Made by a program: the position numbers and the translations under genes. A DNA stretch of 24,145 bases from a virus, in the IMG/VR virus record IMGVR_UViG_3300035438_000093, positions 1 through 24,145 of that record. The stretch is one strand, 5' to 3'. The notes under the pieces were generated by a model that was not told the DNA's origin, made no database searches, and saw only the letters and a list, made by a program, of their open reading frames with translations. Of this stretch, positions 9,695 through 23,064 are shown in pieces; within the stretch, counting starts at the first letter, position 1; the number at the start of each line of letters is the position of its first letter.

Positions 9695-10258
9695 ATGTCT
9701 TGTGATTTAGCAAATGGACGCTTGGAAGTATGTAAAGATGCCGTTGGTGGTATCGAAACAGTTTACTTCATTAACTACGGAGACTTCAATCCTGAAGTTG
9801 ACGTTACCTATTCAGTTGGCACTGATACTATCGCTACTATTGCCAACGTAACTTCTCTATACAAATACGAACTCAAAGGAACAAACTCTTTCGAGCAAGT
9901 TGTAACATCTTCACGTGAGAACGGAACTACATTCGTTGAGCAAACATTAACAATGACTTTGAAGAAGCAAGACCCTACTACACACAAGTCGGTTAAATTG
10001 CTTGCTTACGGACGTCCACAAATTGTAGTACGCAACCGCAACAACCAGTTCTTCCTTATGGGTCTTGAACACGGTGCTGAGTTGACTACTGCAAACGTGT
10101 CAAATGGTACTGCAATGGGTGACCTTAACGGCTACACTTTGACTTTTGTAGCGACTGAGACTTTGCTTGCCAATCTTTTGAACTGTTCTACTGAGGCAGC
10201 TCTTACAGGTTCAGCAGGTGATGTATTCGGAGCAACGACTACTATCGTAACTGCATAA
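9695..10258 (+). CDS. putative major tail (tube) protein
   Basis: A 187-aa beta-rich protein starting MSCDLANGRLEVCKDAVGGI. It contains KGTNSFEQVVTSSRENGTTF near 66-85, and near 128-155 HGAELTTANVSNGTAMGDLN followed by GYTLTFVATE. The last segment (GDLNGYTLTF, then a glutamate) is a pattern common in siphophage major tail proteins. Codon use resembles the capsid gene, and terminators stand on both sides, as expected for an abundant virion protein. It could instead be another abundant head protein. The start context (ACTAAAAATATG) is A-rich, as in the capsid and decoration genes. Confidence 0.55.
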   Translation: MSCDLANGRLEVCKDAVGGIETVYFINYGDFNPEVDVTYSVGTDTIATIANVTSLYKYELKGTNSFEQVVTSSRENGTTFVEQTLTMTLKKQDPTTHKSVKLLAYGRPQIVVRNRNNQFFLMGLEHGAELTTANVSNGTAMGDLNGYTLTFVATETLLANLLNCSTEAALTGSAGDVFGATTTIVTA

Positions 10259-10265
10259 TCGTTTT

Positions 10266-10306
10266 CTTCATAGCGTGTGAGAAGGGTGGCATTAGCTGCC
10301 CTTTTT
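10266..10306 (+). ncRNA. candidate 3'UTR small RNA with anti-start seed (copy 1)
   Basis: CTTCATAGCGT (10266-10276) begins 8 bases after the tail-protein stop and is followed by GTGAG and a terminator hairpin. TCATAGCGT is the exact reverse complement of ACGCTATGA, which spans four early start codons. Bases 10264-10276 are complementary over 13 nt to 22532-22544 at the ERF gene start. The seed-plus-terminator layout matches copy 2 at 16923. No promoter match is seen here, so it would have to come from the late mRNA's 3' end. Confidence 0.3.
10282..10306 (+). terminator. Rho-independent terminator after the tail-tube gene
   Basis: AAGGGTGGC (10282-10290) and GCTGCCCTT (10295-10303) form a 9-bp stem with two wobble pairs around an ATTA loop, with a T run to 10306. 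It excludes the GTG at 10277 as a real start for the downstream gene. Confidence 0.85.
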
Positions 10307-15884: not shown

Positions 15885-16912
15885 AGTTTAGACCAAGAAT
15901 AACAAGAGAAGAATTTGAGATAGTAGCACAATTCAGAGCAATACAAAAAGAGTCAAACGACTTAGGACTAAACGATGCTGACGTAAAGCACGGATGGCTT
16001 AAGTCTAAGAAGGCTTCGCTTTTTTTTAAGAACCCAAACTTTAAGGAATCAGAAGAGCAGAACTACGAGCTTATCCGAGAATCCATAATCAAAGAAATTA
16101 AAGAACACTCACCAGTTTATCCTACAATAACACGGAATCCATCAACGGACGGTCACTTATTAGTCATAGACCCTGCTGACATCCACATAGGTAAGCTCTG
16201 CGATGCTTTTGAAGTAGGAGAGGTATATAACAACCAAATCGCAGTACAAAGAGTCTTAGAAGGAGTGCAAGGTATTTTAGACAAAGCAAGCGGATTCCAC
16301 ATTGACAGGATTCTTTTTATAGGCGGCAACGATATCTTGCACATTGATACTCCAAAACGAACTACCACGGCAGGCACTTCTCAGGACACCGATGGAATGT
16401 GGTACAGTAACTTTTTAATCGCAAAAAAACTATATGTTGAGATTCTCGAACAACTTATCAGCGTGGCTGACGTACATTTTACTTTCAATCCCTCTAATCA
16501 CGATTATACACACGGTTTCTTTCTTGCTGATGTTATTCAGACTTGGTTTAAAGATTGCAAGAACATTTCTTTTGACTGCTCTATTGCACATCGAAAAGGC
16601 TTCCAATACGGAAAGAACCTTATCGGCACGACTCACGGAGATGGAGCGAAACAACAAGATTTACCTATATTAATGGCTACTGAATTTCCGGTTGAATGGA
16701 GTGAAACAAAACACAGGTATGTTTACACGCATCACGTTCACCATAAATCCTCAAAAGATTACATTGGGGTCACCGTAGAGTCACTCAGGTCACCGTCCGG
16801 TACTGATAGCTGGCATCATCGCAACGGCTATGCACACGTTCCTAAAGCAGTTGAAGGTTTTATCCACCATAAAGAGTTTGGGCAGTGCTGCCGAATTACT
16901 CACAATTTTTAA
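15881..16912 (+). CDS. calcineurin-like metallophosphoesterase
   Basis: A 343-aa protein with the full set of metallophosphoesterase motifs in order: DIHIGK (100-105), GGND (148-151), NHD (206-208), THGD (251-254) and HVHH (285-288). These supply the two-metal site. The N-terminal 80 residues are charged and helical and probably form an accessory domain. The family includes nucleases, phosphodiesterases and protein phosphatases, so the substrate is unknown; similarity to SbcD/Mre11-type nucleases is possible. It starts by ATGA overlap with the spanin gene and is the last gene of the late block. Confidence 0.8.
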   Translation: MKFRPRITREEFEIVAQFRAIQKESNDLGLNDADVKHGWLKSKKASLFFKNPNFKESEEQNYELIRESIIKEIKEHSPVYPTITRNPSTDGHLLVIDPADIHIGKLCDAFEVGEVYNNQIAVQRVLEGVQGILDKASGFHIDRILFIGGNDILHIDTPKRTTTAGTSQDTDGMWYSNFLIAKKLYVEILEQLISVADVHFTFNPSNHDYTHGFFLADVIQTWFKDCKNISFDCSIAHRKGFQYGKNLIGTTHGDGAKQQDLPILMATEFPVEWSETKHRYVYTHHVHHKSSKDYIGVTVESLRSPSGTDSWHHRNGYAHVPKAVEGFIHHKEFGQCCRITHNF

Positions 16913-16920
16913 TATATTTG
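16913..16920 (+). promoter_or_regulatory. -7-like promoter box after the phosphoesterase gene
   Basis: TATATTTG matches the Bacteroidota -7 consensus TAnnTTTG and starts right after the stop codon. No good -33 TTG is found at the right distance (only CTG at 16888). If used, transcription would begin near 16925, at the CTTCATAGCGT word, and end at the terminator after about 37 bases. Confidence 0.3.
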
Positions 16921-16922
16921 TA

Positions 16923-16961
16923 CTTCATAGCGTAAGAGCCTCCTTAATCGGGGGCTTTTTT
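16923..16961 (+). ncRNA. candidate small RNA with anti-start seed (copy 2)
   Basis: CTTCATAGCGTAA (16923-16935) is followed by GAG and a terminator hairpin. It is perfectly complementary over 13 nt to 22530-22542, across the ERF start codon. Over 10 nt it matches the starts at 17324 and 17505, and over 9 nt the start at 21319. It lies 11 bases after a late-gene stop and just downstream of a TATATTTG box. It shares CTTCATAGCGT and the following GAG with copy 1. Expression is not proven. Confidence 0.35.
16937..16961 (+). terminator. Rho-independent terminator ending the late block
   Basis: AGCCTCC (16937-16943) pairs with GGGGGCT (16950-16956), with one T-G wobble, around a TTAATC loop, followed by a five-T run to 16961. 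It separates the late genes from the early control region. Confidence 0.88.
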
Positions 16962-17257
16962 CGTATCATACTATGATTTTTGTATAGTATATTATACCTA
17001 ATTGGCTATATTCCGACTAAAGTCACATTATATTATACTTTTTGGGGTGTAGTGCCGATAATTCAAAATATACTTTCCGGTAATTGAACAAATTAAACAC
17101 TCATTTACCCTTACTATATGACATAAGTCCTAATAATTACCACTTACTTTGTTACAAAATGTAAAGTGAATATAAAAAATGTTCAAAAACTTTGCGCCTG
17201 AAAGCCTTGTAAAATAAAGGAAACTGAAAAAACTTTAAAAAAAATGCAACTTTTTTG
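16962..17257 (+). other. AT-rich non-coding control region upstream of the early promoter
   Basis: About 300 bases with no convincing gene. It holds ATACTAT/ATAGTAT inverted arms around 16968-16990, a 10-base direct repeat TATATTATAC (16988 and 17029), three copies of GGTAATT in both orientations (17079, 17135 reversed, 17260 within the promoter), and a dyad-like ACTTT...AAAGT with inner TTAC...GTAA (about 17145-17166). Such clustering suggests repressor or activator binding, and the AT-richness could also serve DNA unwinding. No specific regulator gene is recognised in the window. Confidence 0.55.
16988..17038 (+). repeat. 10-bp direct repeat TATATTATAC, two copies
   Basis: Exact copies at 16988-16997 and 17029-17038, start-to-start 41 bases, close to four helical turns. 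The AT-rich composition raises the chance of coincidence, but both lie in the non-coding control region. Confidence 0.5.
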
Positions 17258-17287
17258 TTGGTAATTACGAAAGAGTATCTATATTTG
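17258..17287 (+). promoter_or_regulatory. early promoter, TTG-N19-TATATTTG
   Basis: TTG at 17258-17260, 19 bases, then TATATTTG at 17280-17287 matches the Bacteroidota housekeeping consensus (-33 TTG, -7 TAnnTTTG). It would give a leader of about 32 bases before the ATG at 17324 and probably drives the early operon. A GGTAATT word at 17260-17266 overlaps the spacer, so a repressor could sit on the promoter. Confidence 0.75.
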
Positions 17288-17323
17288 TATATAATTAATT
17301 CACAAACACAAAAAATAAACGCT

Positions 17324-17500
17324 ATGAAAACAATGATTTACAAAGGTTTTAAAGTAACCGAAACAATGCAAGAAGGTGGCGCAACAACAGCAGTTGCTTA
17401 TTTAAATGGTCAAGTGATGTTTGGTACATTCAGTCACGTTGATACGCTTACTGCATTTGAAAAAATGATTGTAAAAATTAACAGCTTTTTAAATAAATAA
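17324..17500 (+). CDS. small early protein, 58 aa
   Basis: First gene after the early promoter. The start at 17324 (MKTMIYKGFKVTETMQ) is chosen because it follows the promoter's expected start of transcription; the longer frame from 17255 would overlap the promoter itself. It is a compact alpha/beta protein with a C-terminal helix. No family is recognised. Its start codon lies in ACGCTATGAA (17319-17328), complementary over 10 nt to the CTTCATAGCGT elements. First genes of phage early operons often counter host functions, but nothing here shows that directly. Confidence 0.7.
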   Translation: MKTMIYKGFKVTETMQEGGATTAVAYLNGQVMFGTFSHVDTLTAFEKMIVKINSFLNK

Positions 17501-17504
17501 CGCT

Positions 17505-17687
17505 ATGAACAAAGAACAACTTTTAGAACTTATCCGCAACGAAGAAGCGGAGCTTTACTTTCAGCTCTTAGAGCAACGAGACGCATTTGGTGCTAATGAT
17601 AGAGGCACAATGCATACGGCAGCGCAATGGTTTGCAATAACAACATTAATTGATAAAATTGAAGAAAATGAAGAACTTAGTAAATAA
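17505..17687 (+). CDS. small early protein, 60 aa
   Basis: Starts 5 bases after the previous stop, again in ACGCTATGAA (17500-17509). It is helical, acidic at both ends (MNKEQLLELIRNEEAELYFQ and IEENEELSK), with a central TMHTAAQWFAITTLID segment. No family is recognised. It overlaps the next gene by 20 bases. Confidence 0.65.
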   Translation: MNKEQLLELIRNEEAELYFQLLEQRDAFGANDRGTMHTAAQWFAITTLIDKIEENEELSK

Positions 17688-17919
17688 ATACGGATTCTTG
17701 TTTCAAGACTTGAATCAGGACGAACGCCAAATTTTAGGCGGTGGCATAGTTGCCGTCTTAGGCTTTAGCTTTTTGATTTGGTTGGCAAGTACAAACACTC
17801 TGCCAGTTCTAGATGCCAAAACACGAAACGAACAAACCTACCAAAAGAAGACCTACAAATTAAACAAGAATTTTAACAAATATGTAAACCGAATCTACAA
17901 TGAAAAATACGGAAAATAA
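17668..17919 (+). CDS. small single-span membrane protein, 83 aa
   Basis: The start is taken at the ATG at 17668 (MKNLVNKYGFLFQ) rather than a TTG at 17650. One membrane segment (GGGIVAVLGFSFLIWLA, about 24-40) follows a short charged N-terminus; the C-terminal 40 residues are very basic (Lys, Asn, Tyr). No function is known. An early phage membrane protein of this kind could act in superinfection exclusion or in membrane attachment of replication, but there is no direct evidence for either. Confidence 0.6.
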   Translation: MKNLVNKYGFLFQDLNQDERQILGGGIVAVLGFSFLIWLASTNTLPVLDAKTRNEQTYQKKTYKLNKNFNKYVNRIYNEKYGK

Positions 17920-18211
17920 ATTTTGGTTTGCTGCGACCTCGCAGAACATCAGCTCACAATTATTACAGGTAGAATGCTACGACCTAAACACGGACGAAAA
18001 AGTAGCTACAATAGAACTAAAATACACATACGATGAGACATCAGAACAATGGACTGTGGAGCATACTGAGTTCCATACCAACCCTACTATCAAAGAAATC
18101 AGCGAGCTTACCGAAGAGCTGCTTGAAAGAGCAAGCAATGAGTTTCACGACTTCTGCTACCAATGCTCAATGTACGAGGAGTATGATGATGAGGAATGGT
18201 GGTGTATTTAG
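17900..18211 (+). CDS. acidic hypothetical protein, 103 aa
   Basis: Overlaps the previous gene by 20 bases. A beta-rich first half (QLLQVECYDLNTDEKVATIE) leads into an amphipathic helix (SELTEELLERASNEFHDF), and the protein ends in a strongly acidic, Trp/Cys-containing tail (CSMYEEYDDEEWWCI). It is small and highly negative, as in many phage host-takeover or DNA-mimic proteins, but the charge alone is not diagnostic. Confidence 0.65.
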   Translation: MKNTENKFWFAATSQNISSQLLQVECYDLNTDEKVATIELKYTYDETSEQWTVEHTEFHTNPTIKEISELTEELLERASNEFHDFCYQCSMYEEYDDEEWWCI

Positions 18212-18296
18212 CCGCCAGCAATATGAGCATTTTTGGACAAACTTTAATTACGATTTATATAACCGCATCTGCGAAATCAAATACTCTGAGCTATGA
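18183..18296 (+). CDS. short hypothetical protein, 37 aa
   Basis: A 37-codon ORF in the +1 frame of the preceding gene's end. Its tail, SRQQYEHFWTNFNYDLYNRI, has a natural-looking aromatic and charged composition. Its stop is embedded in the next gene's start (GCTATGA at 18290). Three consecutive ATG codons (18183-18191) make the exact start uncertain. The open frame extends further upstream, but that part reads as a shadow of the 103-aa gene. Confidence 0.45.
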   Translation: MMMRNGGVFSRQQYEHFWTNFNYDLYNRICEIKYSEL

Positions 18297-18508
18297 AATA
18301 CTTTTGGAAAATGAGAAACGGACAACTGATAGACGTTGACCAAATGAGCGAAACGCATTTAAGAAACTCGCTTAAAATGATGATTAGAAATACTCAGGTA
18401 AAAGCAGCTACAAGAAAACCAATTGGCAATATCGAAGCTAATTTCTTTGAGGCTCAAAATAACGAATACTTAGAAGACGAATTAGCAAATCAATTTTACG
18501 GATTATGA
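18293..18508 (+). CDS. hypothetical protein, 71 aa
   Basis: Starts MKYFWKMRNGQLIDVDQMSE and continues with THLRNSLKMMIRN, a pattern I have the impression of seeing in other phage early regions but cannot name. It is helical and charged, with no membrane segment. The start lies in GCTATGAA, giving 8 nt of complementarity to the CTTCATAGCGT elements, and ends in an ATGA overlap. Confidence 0.65.
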   Translation: MKYFWKMRNGQLIDVDQMSETHLRNSLKMMIRNTQVKAATRKPIGNIEANFFEAQNNEYLEDELANQFYGL

Positions 18509-18651
18509 GATTTAAACTGACATACAAAATAGGACTTGCAATTGTCCAAGAGTGGATATTCACCTCAAAAGGTTTAGCTTACTGGAAAAAAAGAGACCTG
18601 ATTGAGACAGGAAGATTTAATGATGGAAAATTTTTAATAACACCAATATGA
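18505..18651 (+). CDS. short basic protein, 48 aa
   Basis: A 48-codon ORF joined by ATGA overlaps to both neighbours. It is basic (MRFKLTYKIGLAIVQEWIFT ... KKRDLIETGRF) with a mixed alpha/beta pattern. Its linkage directly before the DnaA-like gene suggests a replication-related accessory, but nothing specific is visible. Confidence 0.5.
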   Translation: MRFKLTYKIGLAIVQEWIFTSKGLAYWKKRDLIETGRFNDGKFLITPI

Positions 18652-19100
18652 ACTTTGAACAAGTATTAGAATACATTAAACAAGAAGATTTAGGTTGTAA
18701 GTCAAGAGAGCAGTTTTATGTTTTTAGACGTTTCTATTTAATCAATGCAATTTATCAAACACGCCAATTTACGTTAGCGCAGATAGGTTCGTTTTTCAAT
18801 AGAGACCATTCAACTGTCTTGCACTCCGTCCGGAAGCATCAGGATTTAAAACGTGATAAGTTGTATCAACACATCAACGAAGGTTGCGCTAAATTATTGT
18901 GTGAGCCAATTACGTTCAGTAAACAAAGACGGAATATCTTTGATGATTTAGAAAAAGCAAACAATGTAAGTATGCTAAAACGAATAAAGAGATACTACAA
19001 AGCTGGCTACTACGAGCTGAGTCCAAAGCCAAGCAAGGAGAATTGGGAAAAGATTGGACAACACGTTAAAAATAATTTTCCACAAGACGAACAAAATTAG
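18648..19100 (+). CDS. DnaA domain-IV-like DNA-binding protein
   Basis: A 150-aa protein. Residues 22-66 match the C-terminal DNA-binding domain of DnaA: an N-terminal helix, LAQIGSFF (43-50) and the signature NRDHSTVLHSVRK (51-63), compared with bacterial G-x-RDHTTVLHA-x-RK. No AAA+ domain is present. It may bind DnaA-box-like sites at the phage origin or compete with host DnaA. The C-terminal 80 residues are basic and unknown. It is the first replication-type gene of the operon and precedes the initiator gene. Confidence 0.75.
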   Translation: MNFEQVLEYIKQEDLGCKSREQFYVFRRFYLINAIYQTRQFTLAQIGSFFNRDHSTVLHSVRKHQDLKRDKLYQHINEGCAKLLCEPITFSKQRRNIFDDLEKANNVSMLKRIKRYYKAGYYELSPKPSKENWEKIGQHVKNNFPQDEQN

Positions 19101-19111
19101 ACTTTATTAGT

Positions 19112-19119
19112 TATATTTG
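19112..19119 (+). promoter_or_regulatory. -7-like box before the initiator gene
   Basis: TATATTTG fits TAnnTTTG, and lies in the 121-base gap after the DnaA-like gene. No clear TTG is found 17-23 bases upstream. If active, it would start RNA near 19125, giving a leader of about 95 bases before the ATG at 19222. Confidence 0.35.
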
Positions 19120-19187
19120 TTGATGGGTAAGCAGACCCTAAAAAGACATTTATTTAAACCTCATTTGGCTAGTAGTGCTGCTTCACG

Positions 19188-19207
19188 AAAACCGAATGGG
19201 GTTTTTT
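19188..19207 (+). terminator. weak terminator/attenuator-like hairpin in the initiator leader
   Basis: AAAACC (19188-19193) pairs with GGTTTT (19200-19205) around GAATGG, followed immediately by T. The stem has only two G-C pairs, so the call is tentative. It sits between a -7-like box and the initiator start, a place where attenuation would control replication. Confidence 0.35.
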
Positions 19208-19221
19208 CATTTAAGCAGAAA

Positions 19222-19812
19222 ATGAGCGAAAGAAAAGCAGTAAAATTTTATAGGAGCTATTGGGAGGTAGCTATGCAACTAAACGACAAGGATAGACTTG
19301 CGTTTTACGATGCGCTGATGTTACGTCAGTTTACAGGACAAGAGCCAACTTTAACAGGTATGGCTAACTTTGCCTACATTAGTCAAAAACATTCTATAGA
19401 CGCTCAGGTTAAAGGCTTTGAGGATAAGACTAAGATACCTTTGCAAGGGGGTACGCAAGGGGGTACGAAAGCCCCTTTGGTACAAGTACAAGAGAAAGAA
19501 GAAGAGAAAGAAGAATACACTATAGATTATCAAGCGTTGCTTGACTTCGTGAATACTACTTTTGGACGGAAGATTAAAACTATCAATGATAAGGCTAAAC
19601 GTAATTACAGGAAACTACTCAAAGACGGCTACAAGAAAGAGGACATCCTGAACGCAATGAAGAACTGCAAAGAGAACCAATACCATAAAGATAACAACTA
19701 TCAGTATTGCACTCCGGAGTTTTTTAGTAGAGCTGAGACAATAGATAAATACGCTGACTTGACAATTGTTAATGAAAGTGATAGTATCTTAGCCCACCTA
19801 AATAAACATTAA
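19222..19812 (+). CDS. phage replication initiator (DnaD/Phg_2220_C-like)
   Basis: A 196-aa protein. The start is set at the ATG at 19222 (MSERKAVKFYRSYW). An in-frame ATG at 19123 lies just before the likely start of transcription and adds an unrelated basic tail. The N-terminal domain (about 5-70, FYRSYWEVAMQLNDKDRLAF) resembles the DUF6291-type phage replication domain. A low-complexity linker (75-98, Gly/Glu-rich) follows. The C-terminal domain (100-180, IDYQALLDFVNTTFGRKIKT, KLLKDGYKKEDILNAM) matches the Phg_2220_C domain of initiators that load helicases. The helicase-type ATPase gene follows 1 base later. Confidence 0.7.
   Translation: MSERKAVKFYRSYWEVAMQLNDKDRLAFYDALMLRQFTGQEPTLTGMANFAYISQKHSIDAQVKGFEDKTKIPLQGGTQGGTKAPLVQVQEKEEEKEEYTIDYQALLDFVNTTFGRKIKTINDKAKRNYRKLLKDGYKKEDILNAMKNCKENQYHKDNNYQYCTPEFFSRAETIDKYADLTIVNESDSILAHLNKH
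19443..19483 (+). repeat. tandem 12-mer with inverted half-site inside the initiator gene
   Basis: GCAAGGGGGTAC occurs twice in tandem (19443-19454, 19455-19466). It is followed by CCCCTTTGGTAC (19472-19483), whose first half is the inverted form of AAGGGG. It lies in the linker between the initiator's two domains and is followed by a purine-rich stretch and ATACACTATAGATTATC. The layout resembles iterons of phage origins placed inside the initiator gene, as in lambda O. Confidence 0.45.
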
Positions 19813-19813
19813 T

Positions 19814-20752
19814 ATGCTACTTAAACACGGAGACTCACTTCAGTATTTACTTGATGTAAGAGATGGTAAGATAAAACAAGGTCTTGGACTTGACTGCTTC
19901 TTGGATGAGCATTTAAGATTTAAGCCAAAGCAACTAAACATTATTCTCGGACACGACAATGTCGGAAAAACGTATTGGATAAACTGGTACTTCTTAACCT
20001 TAGCACTTAAACACAATCTCACATTTTGCATTTGGTCAGGCGAGAATCAAAAAGGACAAATCCTTAGAGATATGATTCAGATGTATAGAGGCAAGCACTT
20101 CAGTAAACTTAGCCATTCACAAATCAGCGGAGACCTTGCGTACTTGGAGCAGTTCTTTACATTCATTGATAATGCCAAACTTTACAAACCTGATGAGGTA
20201 CTTGAACTATTTAAGAAAAGCGGAGCTGATGTAGGATTGATAGACCCGTTCACCGGACTTGACCGAGAAATGAGCTTTGCAGGCAATTACGAGTTTATGA
20301 ACCGAGCAAGACAATTTGCTAATCAAACCGGAATGACAATCTATATAAACACGCATCCAAATACGGAGAGTGGTAGAAGCGGAAATTTATATACTGAAGG
20401 AGATTTAAAAGGGCATCTTAAAGCACCTTTGAAAGACCATATTGAAGGCGGTAAGGCTTTTTTAAATCGTTGTGATGATATGATTGTTGTACACCGATTG
20501 ATTAAGCATCCTGAGCATAAATACAAAACTTGGATTCAGGTTGAGAAAGTTAAAGATATGGAAACAGGCGGCAAGCACACGGCAATTGACTCACCAGTTG
20601 TTTGCGACTTTAACAACGGCATTGGCTTTGCAATAAATGGAGTAGACCCTTTAAAGAAGCATCGTCCTAAAGAAGTGCAAAAGCAGATACAAGACGGTAT
20701 TATATCAACATCGGAGAAACTCCGTAATTTAGCCAAACAAAATCCTTTCTAA
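19814..20752 (+). CDS. RecA-fold replicative ATPase, DnaB-helicase-like
   Basis: A 312-aa protein with Walker A GHDNVGKT (46-53), the SGENQ strand (75-79), Walker B VGLIDP (140-145) and INTHPN (178-183), followed by GGKAFLNRCDDMIVVHR (212-228). This is the core of a DnaB/RecA-like hexameric ATPase without the DnaB N-terminal domain or a primase domain. It is the likely replicative helicase, loaded by the initiator encoded directly upstream. The C-terminal 50 residues are basic. The gene ends by TAATG overlap with the next one. Confidence 0.75.
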   Translation: MLLKHGDSLQYLLDVRDGKIKQGLGLDCFLDEHLRFKPKQLNIILGHDNVGKTYWINWYFLTLALKHNLTFCIWSGENQKGQILRDMIQMYRGKHFSKLSHSQISGDLAYLEQFFTFIDNAKLYKPDEVLELFKKSGADVGLIDPFTGLDREMSFAGNYEFMNRARQFANQTGMTIYINTHPNTESGRSGNLYTEGDLKGHLKAPLKDHIEGGKAFLNRCDDMIVVHRLIKHPEHKYKTWIQVEKVKDMETGGKHTAIDSPVVCDFNNGIGFAINGVDPLKKHRPKEVQKQIQDGIISTSEKLRNLAKQNPF

Positions 20753-21054
20753 TGGACATCGGACTCCTACTTATAAAAACACGGACCAATTTATGGTCTA
20801 TTCAGCAAAGAATCAAAACCGCACGGTTGCAAATACTAAAAACAAGACCTGATGCAACTGACTACATCAAAGGCGCAGAACAATCAGAAGAGGAGTTATT
20901 AGAGGCTATCAGCTTTCTTACGAACCTTTACGAACACGCAGTATCAATAAGTCGAGAAAATACAATTCTCGCTACTCGAAACATTGAGCTGAGTAGACAA
21001 AAACACGAACTTGAGCAACAAATTAAATTTAATAATATACACGAACAACTATGA
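20752..21054 (+). CDS. coiled-coil hypothetical protein, 100 aa
   Basis: An all-helical protein with two probable coiled-coil stretches (RTNLWSIQQRIKTARLQI near 11-28, and RNIELSRQKHELEQQIKF near 76-93). No enzyme motif, membrane segment or signal peptide. It overlaps the ATPase gene by one base and the next by ATGA, so it is probably a replication accessory or a structural adaptor. Confidence 0.65.
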   Translation: MDIGLLLIKTRTNLWSIQQRIKTARLQILKTRPDATDYIKGAEQSEEELLEAISFLTNLYEHAVSISRENTILATRNIELSRQKHELEQQIKFNNIHEQL

Positions 21055-21305
21055 AAAAAGAACAAAAGTTAGTCGCACTTTGTGCAGTATTACCAGTCTT
21101 AGCAGACTTCATTGAAGACTTAAACGACAACGGAGTATTTCGCCAAACTCTAAAGAACAAAGCAACGATGTTAATGAAAGAAATTGAAAAGGTAGATAGA
21201 GCCGTTTTAAGAATAGACGAAGCCAATGCCGAGCAGATTTGGAACGACCAAATAAAACTGCAACAATCTTTCAGGAATTGGATTGAAGAAACAATTAAAC
21301 TATAA
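21051..21305 (+). CDS. hypothetical helical protein, 84 aa
   Basis: Starts MKKEQKLVALCAVLPVLADF and continues with RQTLKNKATMLMKEIEKVDR. It is charged, helical and mildly acidic. The pattern is one I loosely associate with small Bacteroidota phage proteins, with no known function. It is joined by ATGA to the coiled-coil gene and followed 13 bases later by the methyltransferase gene. Confidence 0.65.
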   Translation: MKKEQKLVALCAVLPVLADFIEDLNDNGVFRQTLKNKATMLMKEIEKVDRAVLRIDEANAEQIWNDQIKLQQSFRNWIEETIKL

Positions 21306-21318
21306 AAACAAGAACGCT

Positions 21319-21996
21319 ATGAGAGTTTTAATAGCTTGTGAAGAAAGCCAGGCAGTCACAAAAAAGTTTAGGGAGTTAGGACACGAAGCGTTTAGTTGTG
21401 ACATACTACCTTGCAGCGGTGGTCATCCTGAATGGCATTACCAACAGGACGTGTTTAAGGTAATTAATATGGGGTGGGATTTAATGATAGCTCACCCGCC
21501 TTGCACATACCTGGCAGTCAGCGGAGCAGGTTGGATGTATAATAAAGACGGTACTCGAAATGAAGAGAGATACCAAAACCAAATGGATGGTCTTGAGTTT
21601 GTCCACAAATTAATGGATGCACCAATTGCAAGAATAGCCATTGAGAATCCTATTTCAGTTATATCAACATACATTCGAGAGCCTGACCAAATTGTTCATC
21701 CGTGGCAGTTTGGTGATGAAGCGGAGAAATCAACTTGTTTGTGGCTTAAAAATTTACCAATGCTTGTACCTACAAAAATAGTTGGCAAGGGTGAAATGTA
21801 TGAGTGGATTGATGGTAAGACCGGTAAGAAAAAAAGACAGCCTCTTTGGTATTACCAGGCATTAAGTAAATCAAAGACACCTGCTGAAAGACGAACATTA
21901 AGAAGTAAGACATTTGAAGGTATAGCAAGAGCAATGGCATACCAATGGAGTGATGTTAAAATAGGAATACAAAAAACTATTTTTGATGAGGTGTAA
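21319..21996 (+). CDS. C5-cytosine methyltransferase-like protein
   Basis: A 225-aa protein. The start at 21319 (MRVLIACEESQAV) is chosen because an earlier frame start at 21283 lies in the previous gene. It shows an altered motif I (ACEESQAVTKKFRELGHEA), a DIxP segment, motif IV HPPC (59-62, catalytic Cys62) and motif VI ENP (109-111). It is shorter than typical Dcm enzymes and lacks a clear target-recognition region, as is common in this phage family. It could protect phage DNA from restriction. Its ATG lies in ACGCTATGA (21314-21322). Confidence 0.72.
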   Translation: MRVLIACEESQAVTKKFRELGHEAFSCDILPCSGGHPEWHYQQDVFKVINMGWDLMIAHPPCTYLAVSGAGWMYNKDGTRNEERYQNQMDGLEFVHKLMDAPIARIAIENPISVISTYIREPDQIVHPWQFGDEAEKSTCLWLKNLPMLVPTKIVGKGEMYEWIDGKTGKKKRQPLWYYQALSKSKTPAERRTLRSKTFEGIARAMAYQWSDVKIGIQKTIFDEV

Positions 21997-22501
21997 GAAC
22001 TGCAAGGATAAGTTTGAGCCTGTTCGGTTTAATGCAAAATACTGCCTCAAAGAAGAATGCATCCGTGCTTTTGTAGCCGAAACAAAAGAGAAGCAATGGA
22101 AGCATACGAAAACACGAATGAAAGCAGATTTAGAGACAGTTCAAGACGTTGTTAAAGCAGCTCAGATAGTATTCAATAAATACATCAGGGAGCGAGATAA
22201 AGCTCAACCTTGCATCAGTTGTGGCTCACAACCAAAAAAAGAAAACGCTGGACATTTTTTTAACGCTAACAATCATTGGAATGTTCGCTTTGATGAGGAT
22301 AATGTTCACCTGCAATGCGAGAGGTGCAACAGCTTCTTATCAGGCAACTTGATTGAGTATAGAGCAAACCTAATATCTAAGATAGGACAGGAGAGATTCG
22401 AGCAACTTGAATCAAGAGCAAGGGTAACACGAAAATTTACAAAAGACGAACTAAAAGAAATTATAAAAAAATATAAAAAAAAGATTAATGAATTGAATTA
22501 A
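21986..22501 (+). CDS. NinG-like recombination nuclease
   Basis: A 171-aa protein. An N-terminal zinc-binding set (Cys3, Cys6, Cys20, Cys25) is followed by a basic helix. Then come CISCG (76-80), AGH (88-90), WNVRFDEDNVHLQCERC (98-114) and NSFLSGNLIEYR, matching the lambda NinG/Rap family, which acts on recombination intermediates. The ATG at 21986 overlaps the methyltransferase end by 11 bases and is preferred to the TTG one codon earlier. It lies just before the ERF and exonuclease genes. Confidence 0.8.
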   Translation: MRCKNCKDKFEPVRFNAKYCLKEECIRAFVAETKEKQWKHTKTRMKADLETVQDVVKAAQIVFNKYIRERDKAQPCISCGSQPKKENAGHFFNANNHWNVRFDEDNVHLQCERCNSFLSGNLIEYRANLISKIGQERFEQLESRARVTRKFTKDELKEIIKKYKKKINELN

Positions 22502-22505
22502 TTTA

Positions 22506-22513
22506 TATCTTTG
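22506..22513 (+). promoter_or_regulatory. -7-like box before the ERF gene
   Basis: TATCTTTG fits TAnnTTTG and lies in the 35-base gap after the NinG gene. A TTG at 22493 is only 10 bases upstream, too close for the usual -33, so an incomplete or regulated promoter is possible. The leader that follows (AATTAATTTTT, then ACGCTATGAAG) resembles the early promoter's leader. Confidence 0.4.
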
Positions 22514-22536
22514 TCTAAACAATTAATTTTTACGCT

Positions 22537-23064
22537 ATGAAGAATTTATTTAAATCGTTGGCTTTATTCCAACAAGAAGTGCCTGTCATTCACAAGGCAA
22601 CACAAGGCTACGGCTACTCCTACGCTGACTTGCCTAAAATCTTTGAAGTAATCAACCCGCTGCTAAAGAAACACGGACTTGGATTTACTCAAACCTTACA
22701 CACAAAGGAAGGTGTTAACTACATTGCTACAATGGTGTTTCACGTTGAGACTGGCGAGAACATCGAAAGCCTTGTTGCTATTCCTTACGTTCAGTTGAAA
22801 GGTATGAACGACTATCAAGGTTTTGGTTCAGGAGTTACTTACTTCAGACGTTATGCACTCAGCTCTGCACTTGGTTTAGTAACCGACAAAGACACGGATG
22901 CATCAGGCGAGCAAGTTAAAACTGAGAAGAAACTGCCTGCTATTGACCAAAAGCGTTTCAGCGCAGCAGTACAAGCCATTGCAAAAGGCGAATACACTCG
23001 TGAGAAGCTCGAAGCATCGTTTGCATTAACTGAAGGTCAAACCGATATGCTCAACGCATTATGA
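22537..23064 (+). CDS. ERF-family single-strand annealing protein
   Basis: A 175-aa protein. GYGYSYADLPKIFEVINPLL (24-43), then KHGLGFTQTL, and GSGVTYFRRYALSSALGL (97-114) followed by DKDTDASG (117-124) match the ERF recombinase core. It anneals single strands in phage recombination and probably works with the adjacent exonuclease. Its start codon sits in TTACGCTATGAAGAA (22530-22544), which is complementary over 13 nt to each of the two CTTCATAGCGT elements, the strongest match of any gene here. Confidence 0.85.
   Translation: MKNLFKSLALFQQEVPVIHKATQGYGYSYADLPKIFEVINPLLKKHGLGFTQTLHTKEGVNYIATMVFHVETGENIESLVAIPYVQLKGMNDYQGFGSGVTYFRRYALSSALGLVTDKDTDASGEQVKTEKKLPAIDQKRFSAAVQAIAKGEYTREKLEASFALTEGQTDMLNAL

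Follow-up and report, generated by a model that had tools for sequence, protein, structure and literature searches.

We studied a stretch of viral DNA of 24,145 nucleotides (nt), hereafter the window (IMG/VR virus record IMGVR_UViG_3300035438_000093, positions 1 to 24,145), in which one short word lies over the start codons of several genes and, in antisense, in two terminator-linked elements that we call E1 and E2. All genes of the window are on one strand. Structural-region genes and an exonuclease gene (ending at 16912) are followed by a gap of 411 bp and, from 17324 on, by replication-type genes: small orphan genes and genes for a protein with a DnaA C-domain, a helicase-like protein, a methyltransferase, ERF and an exonuclease. 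The labels "late" and "early" were deduced from gene functions. An exact search of both strands found six copies of ACGCTATGA and none beyond these. Sense copies at 17319, 17500, 21314 and 22532 (plus strand) correspond to the ATGs at 17324, 17505, 21319 and 22537, and the antisense copies are on the minus strand at 10268 and 16925, with CTTCATAGCGT located at 10266 and 16923. Each antisense copy follows a stop codon (10258; 16912) and precedes a hairpin with a T-run (10282-10306; 16936-16961). The number of copies expected by chance was 0.16 (standard deviation 0.47), and none of 100 dinucleotide shuffles gave six. This 9-mer was picked post hoc; its copy number proves little by itself, and the comparative tests bear the weight. 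A first-pass annotation had listed the same six sites, estimated about 0.2 copies by chance and placed both antisense copies between a late-gene stop and a terminator, all in agreement with our search. Its pairing lengths were also right (13 nt at Erf, 10 at 17324 and 17505, 9 at 21319, and 8 at 18293 and 23738). The features are as follows.

10266-10306, plus strand: E1, the antisense word CTTCATAGCGT (10266-10276) and a hairpin/T-run terminator (10282-10306), seen in the sequence and kept in relatives.
16913-16920, plus strand: predicted -7 promoter box of E2, TATATTTG (TAnnTTTG; consensus from PMC9723704), adjoining the exonuclease stop and kept in relatives.
16925-16961, plus strand: E2, a predicted 37-nt RNA, UCAUAGCGUAAGAGCCUCCUUAAUCGGGGGCUUUUUU, with the antisense word as its 5' end and its terminator at 16936-16961.
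17279-17303, plus strand: putative box (TATATTTG) of the early operon's leader promoter, together with the beginning of the 5' untranslated region (UTR), by sequence match.
17319-17327, plus strand: target word over the start of early gene 17324-17500 (58 amino acids, unknown); E2 duplex -14.8 kcal/mol.
17500-17508, plus strand: target word over the start of early gene 17505-17687 (60 amino acids, unknown); E2 duplex -17.4 kcal/mol.
18290-18297, plus strand: partial target GCTATGAA at the start of gene 18293-18508; duplex -16.3 kcal/mol.
21314-21322, plus strand: target word over the start of the DNA methyltransferase gene 21319-21996; duplex -14.5 kcal/mol.
22502-22515, plus strand: promoter-like box stretch TATCTTTG directly upstream of the Erf gene, from sequence.
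22532-22544, plus strand: target word over the start of the ERF recombinase gene 22537-23064; duplex -21.8 kcal/mol, the strongest target.

The consensus TAnnTTTG, covering -12 to -5, serves as the -7 box for the primary sigma factor of flavobacteria (PMC9723704); the E2 RNA is therefore expected from 16925 to 16961. Its first base was placed by the position of the box. The 5' CAUAGCGU is unpaired in the predicted RNA fold. As a sequence prediction, E2 has the parts of a discrete transcription unit (promoter, short RNA and intrinsic terminator), and the best reading is that it forms a small-RNA gene in its own right, driven by a host-type promoter, and not just a 3'UTR product. The earlier description of both elements as 3'UTR-type small RNAs thus fits the layout of E1 but is incomplete for E2, which has a promoter-like box of its own. 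The late gene 9695-10258 (phrog_19091, unknown function) stops just ahead of E1, which appears to be the 3' end of that gene's transcript and would be released with the 3' end of the late mRNA.

The layout of both elements is conserved among relatives. Eighty first-round relatives were fetched via the exonuclease, and 65 first-round loci showed TATATTTG, TACATTTG or a close variant, then 5-20 nt, a CATAG-type word and a terminator, usually straight after the exonuclease stop; many of these 65 have TTG or TTTG about 21-24 nt upstream. Overall, the E2 layout of TAnnTTTG box, antisense word and terminator was found in more than 100 related loci. Across 19 distinct E2 variants, CATAGCG and the AGAGCC stem base were near-invariant, while the spacer, the terminator loop and the downstream DNA varied. 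An exact scan for CATAGCGTAAGAGCC returned 69 stretches; the box-bearing ones follow the exonuclease where the contig is long enough, and most of these loci have several CGCTATG starts, whereas the 8 chance matches without a box have none. This pattern gave a clean scan, while our first pattern, CTTCATAGCGTNNGAG, was dominated by contigs that were left aside. In three loci (L022, L053 and L079) a GIY-YIG-like gene lies between the exonuclease and E2, yet E2 and its box are intact; these insertions, identified by eye from N-terminal sequence, resemble a homing endonuclease insertion site. The spacer from box to seed is bimodal, being 5-7 nt in non-A clades and a few group-A loci and 16-20 nt in most of group A; the long spacer contains a recurrent CCTAACCACTACT and may have a second function. 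E2 was absent from Flavobacterium phage lillamy, which has the closest exonuclease among named phages, and from all 14 distant exonuclease relatives from bacterial genomes and metagenome-assembled genomes, so that these contigs pointed to no host. Nearly all group-A relatives keep the E1 layout behind their counterpart of late gene 9695-10258, the word there being CATAGCGTG; other clades have related words, namely CATAGTTT, AATAGCTTAA and CATAGTGA (group B) and CATAGCGTGAT (group C). No promoter box was found at E1 in relatives.

This conservation bears on whether the matches are now functionless relics, left by recombination that copied minus-strand starts or parts of a leader. The words do resemble gene starts on the minus strand, but the open reading frames (ORFs) there have merely 9 and 10 codons, and minus-strand gene starts were ruled out on this ground. 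Furthermore, the seed is kept in more than 60 loci though spacer lengths vary, and seeds and targets change together (see below). We regard a relic origin as extremely improbable.

The sense word is characteristic of early starts. Among de-duplicated, E2-bearing group-A relatives, CGCTATG occurred at 17.5% of 268 early starts and at none of 163 late starts (Fisher p = 6e-11), and 97 of 112 CGCTATG copies in group-A loci sit at ORF starts. In group B, [GA]CTATG occurred at 16% of early versus 1.9% of late starts. Most group-A homologues of gene 17505-17687 share its start word. In the window, the E2 duplex was best at Erf, with 16 contiguous pairs (G-U included, and counting two bases ahead of the predicted RNA 5' end), and ranged from -14.5 to -17.4 kcal/mol at the three other tagged starts. 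In one relative (L010), genes on the minus strand at the contig's other end (1190 and 1345) apparently also start with ACGCTATG, so that tagged starts may exist beyond the main early operon.

We then compared each element with its own and with other phages' starts. A strict form of covariation, with identical 8-mers in each clade, was rejected, since several CATAGTT/CATAGCT phages have CGCTATG leader starts; therefore, an energy-based test of own versus swapped pairs was used. Every element was paired with the early start regions of every phage among 70 non-redundant relatives, with row and column means removed. The own element paired better than permuted ones by 0.81 kcal/mol (residual -0.81; permutation standard deviation 0.13; 0 of 5,000 permutations). 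The preference held when relatives were collapsed to 15 element types (0 of 20,000), also when only non-A types were considered (p = 0.002) or when the rare D and X types were left out (p = 0.005). For E1, likewise, 0 of 5,000 permutations were as good as its own pairing. Shuffling the seed core worsened pairing in all 64 phages, and the seed, which is predicted to be accessible, matches initiation regions by complementarity better than the control does. The E2 words vary by clade (CATAGCG, CATAGTT, CATTAGCG and CTCGTTAAATTAG), and their best pairing is with start regions in the phages that carry them. Rare variants were informative. E2 is longer by one T (CATTAGCGTGTG) in L071, L083 and L321, and the Erf query found in each of them an early gene with ACACGCTAA(T) immediately ahead of its start; at another early start of L071, CACACGC-AAA-AATGAATT pairs at -19.6 kcal/mol. 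In L345 and L302, E2 lacks CATAG (CTCGTTAAATTAG) and the leader start lacks CTATG (TAATTTAACAACG-ATG), with 9 contiguous pairs kept just upstream of the AUG. The duplex of L306 consists of two halves separated by a 3-nt mRNA bulge (-14.3 kcal/mol). The leader gene of the window showed homology too patchy to support a co-variation test on it alone.

Statistically, then, seed and target co-vary, the coupling being loose in some clades. The first-pass annotation had held that independent change of the two words in relatives would speak against RNA pairing; overall this was not seen, as own pairing is preferred and rare variants change together. Its idea of RNA pairing is thus supported by the own-phage preference and the early-only words, but the coupling is looser than it implied, CGCTATG leader starts being kept with a CATAGTT element in several clades. 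The alternatives that it offered, a protein-binding site or a shared leader origin, do not predict the own-phage pairing, the co-change or the early-only word. If ACGCTATG were the site of a phage protein (a DNA operator or a translational repressor), the antisense copies would be further sites near terminators, and a short conserved word found at many loci in both orientations would suit that explanation. However, the sense word is tied to ATG and not to promoters, the antisense copies are fixed in place, with a promoter box or a late stop ahead of them and a terminator behind, the own-versus-swapped pairing is specific, and variant clades match through base-pairing across a bulge, which a protein site does not predict. 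This makes a protein site very unlikely. Our computations establish the words, their layout and conservation, the early/late specificity and the joint change of both sides from clade to clade.

Flavobacterium initiates translation without a Shine-Dalgarno sequence, and initiation is tuned by the bases just before the AUG and by openness there (PMC6847099); covering the AUG and the preceding bases should therefore block initiation. We propose that host RNA polymerase would transcribe E2 from its own TAnnTTTG promoter and that the intrinsic terminator would end the RNA at once. The single-stranded 5' end of E2 (UCAUAGCGUA) would pair in trans with the tag over several early start codons, its targets being the mRNAs of the leader genes, the methyltransferase and Erf, and E1, ending a late-gene transcript, would provide the anti-start word a second time. 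With the AUG and preceding bases covered, 30S binding would be blocked, and the early genes would be shut off as late transcripts accumulate. We infer the existence of the RNAs, their action in trans, the repressive effect and its timing from sequence, and we consider the whole account, in which trans-acting antisense RNAs occlude early start codons and shut early genes down, likely to be correct.

The pairing evidence is neutral as to direction, and a host-type promoter could make E2 an early RNA; the RNAs might accordingly pair with early starts to protect or activate the mRNAs through stabilization or altered structure. However, the AUG itself is covered by the pairing, and the four tagged leaders are weakly structured (-0.6 to -8.0 kcal/mol over 80 nt), leaving little inhibitory structure to relieve. 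Protection or activation consequently seems quite improbable to us. The same promoter type would suit superinfection control, in which early or constitutive synthesis of the RNA would keep the early genes of a second, related genome from being translated, and the element words differ by clade, as immunity specificities do. Against this, E1 lies in a late transcript and lysogeny is unlikely: among 13 relatives of about 30 kb, whose records may be incomplete, none had an integrase and one had an HTH_3 repressor-type domain. These counts make a lytic early-off switch likelier than lysogenic immunity, and we hold superinfection control to be unlikely. Several points also weigh against early shutoff by start-codon occlusion. 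Several CATAGTT and CATAGCT phages retain a CGCTATG leader start, the element types TTGG, TGAA and CTAA pair with their own phages no better than average, clearly independent co-changes are few (about three), and relatedness inflates the significance of the permutations. Gene starts in relatives are longest-ORF calls, the E1 seed is partly paired in its local fold, the -33 box of E2 is weak and its start site is a deduced one. Finally, a host-type promoter may drive E2 synthesis as soon as infection begins, and not late only.

E1 and E2 can be compared with several known RNAs. Bacterial 3'UTR-derived small RNAs include those of the CpxQ and OppZ type. Like these, E1 is flanked by a stop codon and an intrinsic terminator and would come free as part of an mRNA 3' end; in contrast to them, the RNAs here would target phage genes, no role of Hfq is assumed, and a promoter of its own is predicted for E2. 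The C4 RNA of phages P1/P7 and the sar RNA of P22 are phage antisense RNAs that block initiation by pairing in the region of a phage gene's translation start (PMC12197685), as is proposed here for E1 and E2. C4 and sar, however, have one antirepressor target in temperate phages, whereas here several early genes share the word, two loci would supply the RNA, and signs of lysogeny are absent. Their kind of lysogeny control, with a temperate phage and an antirepressor target, does not match what we found, the putative targets being leader genes, a methyltransferase and ERF. Rfam, its C4 model included, gave no match, and cmscan of the window returned one unrelated hit below threshold. E1 and E2 resemble C4 and sar at the level of start occlusion and are not members of those families. 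The short lambda RNAs OOP and aQ also down-regulate phage regulators by antisense pairing (PMC12197685), but they are cis-encoded opposite their target, while E1 and E2 are about 0.4-12 kb from theirs and any action would be in trans. C4, sar, OOP and aQ all act on phage genes and are each described with one target (PMC12197685). The prophage RNAs PreS of lambda, svsR and AgvB/AsxR share with E1 and E2 the character of trans-acting, phage-encoded base-pairing RNAs; their described targets are host mRNAs, host small RNAs or incoming-phage effects (PMC12197685, PMC12803456, PMC4104026). In the open-access literature, including reviews of phage small RNAs, we found no equivalent of a shared tag on a phage's own early start codons.

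Other features of the window were also noted. The late/early gap has two conserved non-coding blocks, an imperfect inverted repeat TATACCTAAT.GG.TATATTCCGACTA at 16993-17021 (in 12 fetched loci) and GCGCCTGAAAGCCTTGTAAAATAAAGGAA at 17194-17222 (in 15 fetched loci), which are candidate operator, origin or leader elements. Positions 18648-19100 encode an early protein of 150 amino acids with a DnaA C-terminal DNA-binding domain (PF08299, E 5e-9) and no ATPase domain, possibly a phage replication initiator. The portal-like protein is nearest to those of Nonlabens phages (34.5%).

Taken together, this family of uncultured Bacteroidota phages probably uses E1 and E2 to turn off its own early genes. 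We regard it as slightly better than an even chance that the system is a start-codon barcode regulon, with an early-only AUG tag, one or two tiny RNAs (about 37 nt), a temporal switch made of RNA only, and clade-specific, co-evolving tags. Such a switch, if true, suits hosts that initiate without Shine-Dalgarno sequences. The timing of phage gene expression is usually credited to sigma factors, antiterminators and repressor proteins, and a minimal RNA reading a tag would end the early phase differently. If true, this would be a clear natural case of start-codon occlusion for Bacteroidota, whose mRNAs lack Shine-Dalgarno sequences, and the seed/start-word pairs that differ by clade would form a simple code and a compact tool for gene repression in these hosts.

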